The notes beneath the pieces were generated by a model. The model ran no database searches. It was not told the DNA's origin and saw only the letters and a list, made by a program, of their open reading frames with translations. From Anaerolineae bacterium (GTDB lineage: Bacteria > Chloroflexota > Anaerolineae > Promineifilales > Promineifilaceae): a stretch of DNA of 37,724 nucleotides. The DNA lies in assembly GCA_015486215.1 (NCBI GenBank), contig WFSA01000283.1:1-37724 (forward strand), read 5' to 3'. Of the stretch, positions 8,085-37,619 are shown piece after piece. The position numbers and the translations under genes were made by a program. Position 1 is the stretch's first letter. Each line of letters begins with the position of its first letter.

Positions 8085-8104
8085 TACCCTAGAACTTAAA
8101 CGCA

Positions 8105-8437
8105 TAGGGCGATTGCAACCTTCAAATCGCGTAACATCTCAATATTTCGAGGTGAGTACAACAAATTAAGAAAGGAACAAATTGCGTCAGTCAAGTCAAT
8201 CTGCTCTTTTCCAAATCTGCTACACTCATGTCCCTAATTTTTTGAGAAGATACCAAATCACACTGTTAAATTCCAAATTTACACCGTTTTTAGCAGCTCC
8301 GCAATCGACATAACACGTGAATTGCGGAGAATTTATGCGTTATGATTGTCGTGATCGGTTTCGTGATCGTTTTTTTTCGATTTTCGATCACGAAAACGAT
8401 CACGATCACGAATTAAGGCGAGGTTGCAATCTCCCTA
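8105..8437 (-). mobile_element. Family C element, copy 2, reverse orientation, split by a D2 insertion
   Basis: The outer ends are tagggcgattgcaacc (8105-8120) and ggttgcaatctccct (8422-8436). Flanking 10-mers CTTAAACGCA (8095-8104) and CTCAAATGCA (8438-8447) agree at 8 of 10 positions, both differences being transitions, so they look like an aged target duplication. The element is interrupted at 8131-8253 by a D2 element that duplicated 8 bases of family C sequence. It carries the same gatcacgaaa tandem units as copy 1. Confidence 0.8.
8131..8253. mobile_element. Family D2 element inserted in a family C element
   Basis: The ends are gtaacatctcaa and ttgagaagatac, matching the TIR GTATCTTCTCA. 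The interior, with aattaagaaaggaacaaatt, is shared with 32773-32895 and 37384-37506. Flanking 8-mers CAAATCGC (8123-8130) and CAAATCAC (8254-8261) match at 7 of 8. Removing the insert plus one 8-mer restores a continuous family C sequence, which proves the order of insertion. Confidence 0.82.
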
Positions 8438-8467
8438 CTCAAATGCACCCTTCAAATCTCTTCCACA

Positions 8468-12031: not shown

Positions 12032-12220
12032 CAGGGCTATTGCAACTTCGCCTTAATTCGTGATCGTGATCGAAAATCAAAAAAACCGATCACGAAAACG
12101 ATCACGACAATCATAACGCATAAATTCCCCGCAATTCACATGTTATGTCAATTGTGGATCTGCTAAAAACGGTGTAAATTTGGAATTTAACAGTGTGATT
12201 TGGAGGTTGCAGTCGCCCTA
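12032..12220 (+). mobile_element. Family C element, copy 3
   Basis: The ends agggctattgcaac and ggttgcagtcgccct and the central caattcacatgttatgtcaa are shared with copy 1. It has fewer gatcacgaaa units. attagag occurs directly on the left (12025-12031) and near the right end (12222-12228), consistent with a decayed target duplication. Its right end lies 13 bases before the response-regulator ATG, so it forms the gene's immediate 5' region. Confidence 0.7.
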
Positions 12221-29461: not shown

Positions 29462-29651
29462 AGGAATGGGGATTTTATTAAATCCTAAACTTGTCATTCC
29501 TGCCCCCATCCCCACCTTCGTGAGGGTGAATTCTTTTAGGCGGGAACCCATGATTTCCCAGACTGTGGATTCCTGCCTTTGCAGAGCCTGCCCTCATGAA
29601 GATGGGGGAATGACAGATGGGAGTTTCTGGTTTTATTTAATCTTTATTCCT
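29462..29651. repeat. Family E element, copy 2
   Basis: Matches 36948-37131 closely: taggaat...gtcattcctgcccccatcc, then ggcgggaacccatgatttcc, then cctcatgaagatgggggaat. It is followed at once by family A, as in the other copy. The 585-base gap 29223-29807 is mostly this E-A composite; no gene is supported there. Confidence 0.7.
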
Positions 29652-29747
29652 TAGGGAAAACTTGTAAATAACTGTGGCCAAGGTGACAGGCACTTGCCAA
29701 GTGCCTGTCACCTGAAAGTCCAAAGTTAAAAACGAACCTTCCCTTAG
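29651..29747. mobile_element. Family A inverted-repeat element, copy 2
   Basis: Near-identical to 28-123, with the perfect aggtgacaggcacttg hairpin at its centre. It directly follows a family E element. Confidence 0.75.
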
Positions 29748-32550: not shown

Positions 32551-32604
32551 ACAGCGAGTGGCAACTGTACAAGAAATGATTAGAAATGATTAGGGCGATT
32601 GCAA

Positions 32605-32716
32605 GTATCTTCTCAATAAATCGTGGACAAGAGTTGACAAATTTCATCAGCACTTTATTTTACACGAGTATCATTAGGAAAATTTGTCAAGTCTCCCCAG
32701 AATACTGAGAAGATAC
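32605..32716. mobile_element. Family D1 element with 7-bp direct repeat
   Basis: The TIRs are perfect. ATTGCAA lies directly on the left (32598-32604) and right (32717-32723). The left flank, tagggcgattgcaa, is the terminus of family C, so this D1 copy probably jumped into a family C element of which only the end remains. Confidence 0.8.
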
Positions 32717-32772: not shown

Positions 32773-32895
32773 GTAACTTCTTAAAAAGTTGGGGGCATGA
32801 TTACAGCTAATTAGGAAAGGAACGAATTTGCTCGACTGACATAATTTGTTCCTTTCTTAATTGGTTGTAATCACCCCGAAATACTGAGAAGATAC
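32773..32895. mobile_element. Family D2 element
   Basis: The ends gtaacttcttaa and actgagaagatac are near D-family TIRs. The interior, with attacagctaattaggaaag and ctttcttaattggttgtaat, is a long inverted repeat shared with 8131-8253 and 37384-37506. No target duplication seen. Together with the D1 copy it fills the 393-base gap 32538-32930. Confidence 0.7.
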
Positions 32896-32930: not shown

Positions 32931-35900
32931 TTATGATTGATTGTTAGCTTGCGGGATGGCAAACGAGAAGGTTGTGCCGATACCAAGCGTGCTTTCGACC
33001 CACATACGGCCGTTATGCAGTTCAACCAGCCCTTGTGAGATGACTAATCCCAGCCCTGTTCCCGTCGCTTTGCGAATATCAGGGTTGGATGAGCGGAAGA
33101 ATTTAGTGAATAGTTTTTCAACATCTTCTTCTGACATGCCATACCCTTCATCCTGCACAACACAGATGACCATCGGGCGGGGTGGTGTATCTTCAGGACA
33201 GGAGATCTCTTTGGCGTGGATGGTAATGGTAACGGTTGTGTTTTCTGGCGAATATTTACACGCATTGCTCAATAAATTGGTCAATACCTGTACTAATCGT
33301 CCTGTATCGCCCCAAACAGGGGGCAAATCTGAGGGCAAATTGAGATTAAGCTCGATCCCTTTACTGGTGCATGGGCCAGTCACCGTCTGCAATGTTTCGC
33401 TGATAATGGTAGAAAAATGTGTCGTTGTTAATTCAACGGCTAGCTGTCCCGTTTCAATGCGCGAAACATCAGTTAAATCTTGAATCTGTCGCCCCATTCG
33501 TTTTAGATTTGCCTGAATTGTCCCCAAAAACTCAGTTTGTTGGGCATTCAATTCACCAGTCATGCCAGCTAGCATCAAATCTGTGTACCCTCTCATGGAA
33601 GTCATCGGTGTTTTTAATTCGTGCGACACCATTGAGACAAATTCAGATTTGGCACGGTTCGCCTCTTTTACTTCCTCATATAGCAAGGCGTTGGCGATGG
33701 CAACAGCTGCATGATTGGTCATCCGCATTGCCATATCCAAATCCTTTTGCGTGAAAGCATTCAATTTATCGCTTTCGATGGAGGCAACTCCGATTAGGTT
33801 TTGTTTATGGATGATGGGGAGTGTCATCTGCGAATGTGTAGATGTAGATGCTGACACGTACTTATCTTCTTTATGCACGTCACCGCTGAGATGGGGCTTC
33901 CACGTTTGCATAACATGGGCTGAAAGGCTTGAATTAACATTTTCTCTGGTCAACTGTGGCATGTTGTTATATCCACGTGTGGCAAAAACATCTAGGTGAC
34001 CGTCATCATTTACAATGGCGATGGTGCCAGCTGTCCCATTCGCCACGCGTAACGACCAATCAAGCATTAAATTGAGAACGTGGTCAATTTCAAGGGTGAC
34101 ATTAAGATCACGATCGAGTTGTTGCAGCATAGAAAGCTCGTTAACACGCTCTCCTAATTGTTTGTCTGTCTGCTCTAACAGGCGAACATTCTCCATTGCT
34201 AGAACGGCTTGACCAGCAAAGGTCATTAACACTTGCTGATCTTCTTCGTTGAAGGGAGACCCGTTCTTCTTGTTGATGATTTGTAATACGCCTACTATGC
34301 TATTTTTGCGTAGTAAGGGTACTGTCAGTAATGATTCTGTATGGAATTCACTATTTTGGTCTACATTTGAGAACCATCGTTTATCTTCACTTGCATCATG
34401 AACGATGATGGGGCGGCCGCTTTGTGCTACTGTTCCGGCCAAACCAACACCGATGGGGAGCCGCTTGCCAATGAGATTGTCGCTGGTGGGACCGCGTACA
34501 ACGGCAAATTCTAGTTCACCAGTATCTTCGATGGCGAGCATAAATGTTCCGGCTTCGGCGTTCAATAGCTCAATGCTGTTGTCCAGTACGCTACTCAATA
34601 ATGAATCCATTTCCAATGTGGAGGAGATATCAAGTGTAAGTTGGTTGATTTTTTCGAGCTGCCGGGCGCGGTTTTTGAGTTGGTGATTGGTGCGTAATCT
34701 TTCAAGGGCAACGGCCGTGTGGTCAGTAAAAACGTCAAAAAGCTGCCGCTGACGGTCGCGCAGTTTTATCCCTGGCTGACGGAATTGTGTCGTTAATGCG
34801 CCGATGGTGGTTGACCCTGCGTAGAGAGGGGTTGCAATTTGGAAACGGCCGTTTTTATCCTCTCTCATCACCGTTTTTCCTGTGCGGATAACCTCATGCA
34901 CAAGGGGATCGTCTATAAAAACAGTTTCCTGCTCTTCTGATTCATATCGTTCATCATCCTCTACATGAAAAATTTTATACACATTACCTGTTTCCAGATG
35001 ACGTAGATAGATGCACATATCACGGATGCCAAGCAGGCGTTGGAAATTGGTGTATATCAATTCAACCATCATCTCTTGATCTTGTGTAAAGCTGAGATAT
35101 GCTGAAAACTGACTTAATATGTCTAATTCAGAGATGCGTGTTTCTAAATTACGCACGATATTGGCGCGTTCTAATCCAATCCATGTTTGATTGACTAATG
35201 TGTCAATATAAATGATGTCTGCGCGGTGCAACCGTTTACCGTTTTCTTTTGAGGATATGGTCAGCCAGCCGAGCAGGCGACCGCCCGCGTTGATGGGAGC
35301 AATGATGGCTGCATTGAATGAGTTAACTTCCTCAACATACGCTTCTAGTACGGCTGGTTGACTACCCGTTGTTGTGAGGTCAAAACATCCTTTCCCCTTT
35401 TCAAAAATGGAGATGAGCGGGTAGTTTCTGTCAATAAAACGGCCGTTTGTTCCTTGATACGCATTCAATGTCTCATCTGGCAGGAATAAAGTTGGCGTAC
35501 TATCTGGAATACCTTTTAAACTGTAAGCCAATAATGCGTTTGAGATACGATCTACAGAAACGGCCGTTGCCAACTCTTGTCCATATTGCCGTGCCAATAT
35601 ATCTAATGAAACTGGCTGATTAAAAATATACCGATCTACATTCGTTTGCAATTGTTTTTGTAATGGATTCAAAAGCAGCACAACTAATAATGTTGTGATA
35701 ACTACCATAAACGGTGAATCAAATGATATAAATGAATGTAATAAAAGAGCGATCGCATATACAATAATCAGTAGAACGCTTATCAAAAGCGTATATGTTA
35801 TCCCACGCTGCATAACGACATCTACATCCATCATCTGATACCGCACGATAGTGTATGCGATGACCAATGGGTAAATAGTTATAGGAGCTACAATCAATGT

Positions 35901-36947: not shown

Positions 36948-37131
36948 AGGAACGAGGATTTATTTAATTACCAAAGTTGTCATTCCCGCCCCCGCCTTCG
37001 TGAGGGTAAACTCTTTTAGGCGGGAATCCATGATTTCCCAGACTGTGGATTCCTGCCTTTGCAGAGCCTGCCCTCATGAAGATGGGGGAATGACAGATGG
37101 AAGTTTCCGGTTTTATTTAATCCTCATTCCT
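36948..37131. repeat. Family E element, copy 4
   Basis: The ends aggaacgaggatttattta and taatcctcattcct form an imperfect inverted repeat. The interior matches 29462-29651. Family A follows without a gap. Confidence 0.75.
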
Positions 37132-37227
37132 TAGGGAAAACTCGTAAATAACTGTGGCCAAGGTGACAGGCACTTGCCAAGTGCCTGTCACCTGAAAGTC
37201 CAAAGTTAAAAACGAACCTTCCCTTAG
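37130..37227. mobile_element. Family A inverted-repeat element, copy 3
   Basis: Near-identical to 28-123 and 29651-29747, with the perfect central hairpin. It runs directly into family B on the right, the mirror image of the arrangement at the window start. Confidence 0.75.
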
Positions 37228-37383: not shown

Positions 37384-37506
37384 GTATCTTCTCAATATTT
37401 CGGGGTGATTACAACCAATTAAGAAAGAAACAAATTACGTCAGTCGAGTAAATTCGTTCCTTTCCTAATTAGCTGTAATCATTTTCCTAGATTATTGAGA
37501 AGATAT
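37384..37506. mobile_element. Family D2 element
   Basis: GTATCTTCTCAA at the left and TTGAGAAGATAT at the right. The interior is shared with 8131-8253 and 32773-32895. It abuts a D1 element with no more than one base between. Confidence 0.75.
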
Positions 37507-37507
37507 T

Positions 37508-37619
37508 GTATCTTCTCAGTGTTCTAGGAAGACTTGACAAATTTTCCTAATGGTACTCGTGTAAAATAAAGTGCTGATGAAATTTGTCAAGTCTTGTCCA
37601 CGATCTATTGAGAAGATAC
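37508..37619. mobile_element. Family D1 element, last copy
   Basis: Perfect TIRs GTATCTTCTCA and TGAGAAGATAC with the usual hairpin interior. Head-to-tail with a D2 element. The remaining ~100 bases to the window end hold no supported gene. Confidence 0.8.

Follow-up and report, generated by a model that had tools for sequence, protein, structure and literature searches.

Nesting of D2 in a C-family element

The window, which is the whole 37,724-nucleotide stretch of DNA analysed here and belongs to a genome of 4.13 Mb in 341 contigs (G000), contains one TIR element nested in another: a 123-bp element, D2, lies at 8131–8253 inside a 333-bp copy of the C family at 8105–8437. The nesting is confirmed as that of D2 into C and not the reverse. 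Both partners are non-autonomous elements (MITEs), and as a kind such a nest is ordinary. The locus is made up as follows.

8095–8104, no strand: left target duplication of C, CTTAAACGCA (from the sequence and the 10-bp rule of the family, which is perfect in 14 of 47 C pairs)
8105–8130, + strand: left part of C, the TIR TAGGGCGATTGCAACCT and then TCAAATCGC
8123–8130, no strand: left 8-bp target duplication of D2, within C, CAAATCGC
8131–8253, + strand: D2, a 123-bp IS66-like MITE with the ends GTAACATCTCA and TGAGAAGATAC
8254–8261, no strand: right 8-bp target duplication of D2, CAAATCAC (this 8-mer is single in empty C copies)
8254–8437, + strand: remainder of C, ending with the right TIR AGGTTGCAATCTCCCTA
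8438–8447, no strand: right target duplication of C, CTCAAATGCA (from the sequence)

The initial annotation had described a C copy split at CAAATCRC by D2, and its coordinates are correct, as is its statement that each of the two elements has a target duplication of its own. The flanks of D2 are alike at 7 of 8 positions and those of C at 8 of 10, and both lengths are the rule throughout the respective families. The chance of such matches was measured on the sequence of G000 and amounts to 0.00047 for 8-bp flanks that differ at no more than one position at a spacing of 123, and to 0.0006 for 10-bp flanks that differ at no more than two positions at a spacing of 333. Removal of D2 and one copy of the 8-mer rebuilds C, as had also been proposed: the resulting length (333 − 123 − 8 = 202 bp) is the most frequent one among empty C copies, with which the rebuilt element aligns end to end, and its comparison with an empty copy gives 92.6% over the full 202 bp. 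CAAATCRC is present singly in five empty C copies, one of which lies in the window itself at 12032–12220, and copies related to D2 are found elsewhere in G000 with 86–95% identity.

The arrangement is not a general feature of C copies. Among 47 C TIR pairs, a set taken largely from known C loci in which contig C327 is counted twice (L004 and L098) and two loci allow alternative pairings, D2 is located at CAAATCRC in the window copy only. No second junction of this kind was detected, the window being the sole match across the junction among the 40 candidates scored out of 773.

The C family

A perfect 10-bp duplication flanks 14 of the 47 C pairs and one with at most one mismatch flanks 18, while no other length between 3 and 14 bp gives a perfect duplication in more than 3 pairs. 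In its TIRs and this fixed 10-bp target duplication, C agrees with MITEs. Exact copies of the C TIR number 165 in G000 and are absent from the 39 relatives searched, which represent other genera of the same family or more distant ones, and no long C element was found as long TIR pairs in 889 kb.

By its ends C looks ISAs1-like. The end of L323, an ISAs1-family element of the relative G007, is CAGGGCAATTGCATTCT and agrees with the C TIR at 13 of 17 positions, and a second ISAs1 element, L328, has the 10-bp target duplication seen in C. The duplication of L323 itself measures 8 bp, and C departs from the ISAs1 case in that G000 has no match to PF13808, a profile matched in 10 of the 40 genomes searched. 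Two matches to PF01609 in G000 were considered as C partners and rejected; one corresponds to an IS701 gene and the other to a remnant that is IS1182-like, both without C ends. A transposase for C was thus not found through long TIR pairs, PF01609 or PF13808. At locus L310, about 1860–2200, a CRISPR-like array with repeats GGTTCATCCCCACGGGTGTGGGGAAAAC is found beside an IS1182-like transposase remnant.

The D family and its transposase

The statistics of the D family were collected from 57 stretches comprising 643,147 bases of the 4.13-Mb genome, of which 8,235 are masked N; the sample was composed of every sixth contig (at most 20 kb of each) plus the window. It contains 87 D TIR pairs flanked by an 8-bp duplication that has one mismatch or less, 68 of these duplications being perfect, and perfect matches at lengths of 6, 7, 9 and 10 bp number 0, 3, 0 and 0, respectively. 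G000 has 1221 exact copies of the D TIR, GTATCTTCTCA, versus 2 of the reversed control, which corresponds to about 600 D copies; in the 39 other genomes the highest counts are 142, 52, 28 and 18 and the remainder do not exceed 12. The insertions are mostly intergenic, 71 of the 87 having intergenic flanks. The target profile compiled from 126 distinct perfect duplications, with counts symmetrised, is AT-rich at positions 2–7, and the surroundings of these targets are T-rich on the left and A-rich on the right. At 37384–37506 and 37508–37619 of the window two D copies nearly abut, which suggests that one D was inserted at the end of the other.

No match to the transposase profile PF03050 was obtained in G000. 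In the relative G012, a PF03050 relic has its last codons just before TGAGAAGATAC, and with this fragment as the query one match was found in G000 (L190; 119 aa, 56% identity), scoring 18.4 bits against PF03050, below the cut-off. This 119-aa fragment was all that the search for an intact D transposase in the 341 contigs of G000 returned. The same query gave 16 matches in G012 and G014, and none in 8 other genomes tested. In G000, G012 and G014 together, each of the 17 loci has the identical D TIR next to the transposase C-terminus; several of these loci are at contig ends, probably because a multicopy element breaks the assembly.

In the reference genome collection 72 related loci were identified; apart from a single deltaproteobacterial MAG they belong to Chloroflexota and cyanobacteria, two groups in which complete elements exist. 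Thirty of them were examined, and 10 of these have both ends, with GTATC-type TIRs, and a perfect 8-bp duplication; the TIRs of intact relatives are exemplified by GTATCTGTCCAATAA (L212) and GTATCCGCTCAATAAATCGGGG (L220). L212 encodes one 560-aa protein that matches PF03050 with an E value of 4e-11, and L217 matches it with an E value of 1.5e-8, both above the Pfam cut-off. Beyond the 11-bp TIR, the left end of D1 resembles that of G014 (z 5.1) and the left end of D2 that of L220 (z 4.6), while most of the 72 end comparisons showed no resemblance beyond these 11 bp; for the right end of D2 and the end of the G000 fragment the similarity beyond the shared TIR is at chance level (z 1.4).

The D partner, of which the transposase ORF was examined, shares with the IS66 family a PF03050 transposase (43.3 bits, cut-off 23.1), the 8-bp duplication and ends in GTA. 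Elements of the IS66 family have TIRs that start with GTAA and carry the accessory genes tnpA and tnpB, whereas the TIR of the D partner starts with GTAT. We use the label IS66-like since the NCBIfam IS66 equivalog cut-off was missed (90.6, 85.6 and 49.4 versus 180 bits), though that of Pfam was passed. IS66 is mentioned in PMC2246112. The D copies, which combine TIRs and a fixed duplication with high copy number, a mostly intergenic location and a related autonomous IS, are thus IS66-like MITEs, and transposases of this type probably mobilised them.

Distribution of D insertions relative to C

A second locus of the window also combines the two families.

32591–32604, + strand: C-type TIR cut by D1, TAGGGCGATTGCAA
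32605–32716, + strand: D1, a 112-bp D-family MITE, whose flanks have ATTGCAA in common, one base out of register
32773–32895, − strand: second D2-type copy in the same C-type remnant, downstream, with no readable 8-bp duplication

D1 had been placed within the end of a C-type element, and it indeed begins directly after that TIR sequence. The accompanying suggestion, that D has a preference for C, was not borne out as a general rule when D sites in C were counted over the 643-kb sample: D falls into C about as frequently as intergenic space predicts, with 4 of 87 insertions versus 3.7 expected intergenically (P = 0.50). The count was again 4 of 87 with a second element library; the four are insertions in C or a C variant, and one of them is the nest at 8105–8437 itself. 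A uniform null (0.68 expected, P 0.005) would suggest enrichment, but it ignores the avoidance of genes and was rejected because the 71 insertions with intergenic flanks compare with an intergenic share of 18.5% of the sample by the ORF rule used. D inside D was counted 2 times in 87 versus 12 expected, a figure left uninterpreted in view of the difficulty of pairing nested palindromes, and D inside F, a third family described below, 5 times in 87 versus 1.8 expected, where the copies may share descent.

It seems unlikely that D is drawn to C by its sequence or by a hairpin at the C end. Four C TIRs (32591, L098, L286 and L304), out of 127 distinct ones with the exact sequence, show a D-type end at offset 14–15, after the GATTGCAA core, against an estimate of about 0.2 expected from D density, and at L075 a further D interrupts a C TIR with one mismatch and has a perfect GATTGCAA duplication. 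Of the four cases at offset 14–15, however, L286 is the only one with an in-register duplication of at least 7 of 8 positions; the flanks of D1 at 32605, another of the four, match one base out of register. The site also misfits the AT-rich target profile of D, TTGCAA being present in 0 of the 126 perfect duplications. The small cluster of D at GATTGCAA of C stays a weak hint, since the stretches examined are non-random and the test was post hoc.

Multiplied nests of D2-type elements in F

The F family consists of 120-bp elements with the TIR GTAACTACTCAGCC and an 8-bp duplication that is perfect in 17 of 21 pairs. F elements carrying a D2-type insert at GAAGCAAA were found at 11 distinct loci of G000, all with one common junction, and both F ends are found in 9 of the 11. 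The outer 8-bp duplications of these nests agree at 8 of 8 positions in 5 cases, 7 of 8 in 1, 6 of 8 in 2 and 3 of 8 in 1. Matches between the outer flanks of different loci are short (28–51 bases), so the loci are not segmental duplications, and the F nest has moved and multiplied as a unit. L152 is a possible twelfth nest, found in only one of two analyses. In three nests, C35 (L074/L099), L102 and L156, an extra D1 lies at the boundary of F and D2. Examples are the following.

L099, 10158–10528: F with D2-type insert
L100, 14015–14264: F with D2-type insert
L102, 14789–15159: F with D2-type insert
L156, 7007–7377: F with D2-type insert

Order of events

The order of events had been regarded as fixed, with C first and D2 later. 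This holds for the nesting, but not strictly for the arrival at 8105–8437, as the pair may have formed elsewhere and arrived whole in the way the F nests of G000 did. The common junction of those nests at 11 loci, five of them with perfect outer duplications, gives a precedent for a composite element, and the outer C TIRs at 8105–8437 are almost intact. We nevertheless regard arrival as a composite as improbable, given that the scored candidates and the 47 C pairs contain the junction of C and D2 at this one locus only; entry of D2 into C at the 8105–8437 site is the likelier course for the same reason. The notion that chance repeats, and not transposition, underlie the locus can draw on the imperfection of both duplications (7/8 and 8/10), but at a chance of about 5e-4 for each, with duplication rules that hold family-wide and with empty sites, it is refuted by the statistics of the families and has virtually no probability left.

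Insertion of D2 into a resident C would then have proceeded in two steps. A C-family MITE would have inserted first, through a transposase acting on ISAs1-like ends with a 10-bp staggered cut, and a D-family MITE would next have entered 26 bp inside C, at CAAATCGC, through an IS66-like transposase with an 8-bp staggered cut. Directly shown are the TIRs, the lengths of elements and duplications, the empty paralogous sites and the transposase genes that end at a D TIR, as a fragment in G000 and also in relatives. We consider it highly probable that this full account, two nested MITEs with C moved by a transposase acting on ISAs1-like ends and then D2 by an IS66-like transposase, is correct.

Other repeats in the window

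The palindrome AACGGCCGTT is present 26 times in the window, first at 1640–1649 and last at 35559–35568, versus 0.02 expected. ACGGCCGT occurs 1042 times in the 643-kb sample, where the next 8-bp palindrome reaches 62 and the median is 3. We take this abundance to resemble the situation of cyanobacterial HIP1, and no paper on the palindrome was retrieved in the literature with all terms sought. A further repeat family has three copies in the window with 97–98% identity (26–123, 29650–29747 and 37130–37227) and contains a long inner palindrome, GTGACAGGCACTTGCCAAGTGCCTGTCAC.

Discussion

The elements resemble known prokaryotic MITEs in being short and non-coding, with TIRs, fixed duplications, high copy number and intergenic location, and, in the case of D, in being related to an IS. 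They differ in that none of the three families, C, D and F, was assigned to a named one. No paper on a comparable IS66-like MITE was found in the open literature with the terms used. Nested prokaryotic IS and MITEs are described in PMC3852290 as 'Russian dolls' that a pipeline routinely separates and reconstructs. As in those, the elements described here are inserted in each other; a difference is that one nest here, that of a D2-type element in F, has itself multiplied.

At the locus 8105–8437 the relative order of the insertions can be read cleanly, and the multiplied F nest calls for caution in dating insertions by nesting. In a single Chloroflexota genome an IS66-like MITE has reached about 600 copies; with four exceptions, the 39 relatives have at most 12 exact TIRs. 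The multiplied nest of two MITEs also bears on the origin of new MITE families. We tentatively raise the possibility that such nesting is productive, in that a MITE within a MITE could become a new mobile unit, movable by either transposase, of which C with its D2 insert may be a newborn example.
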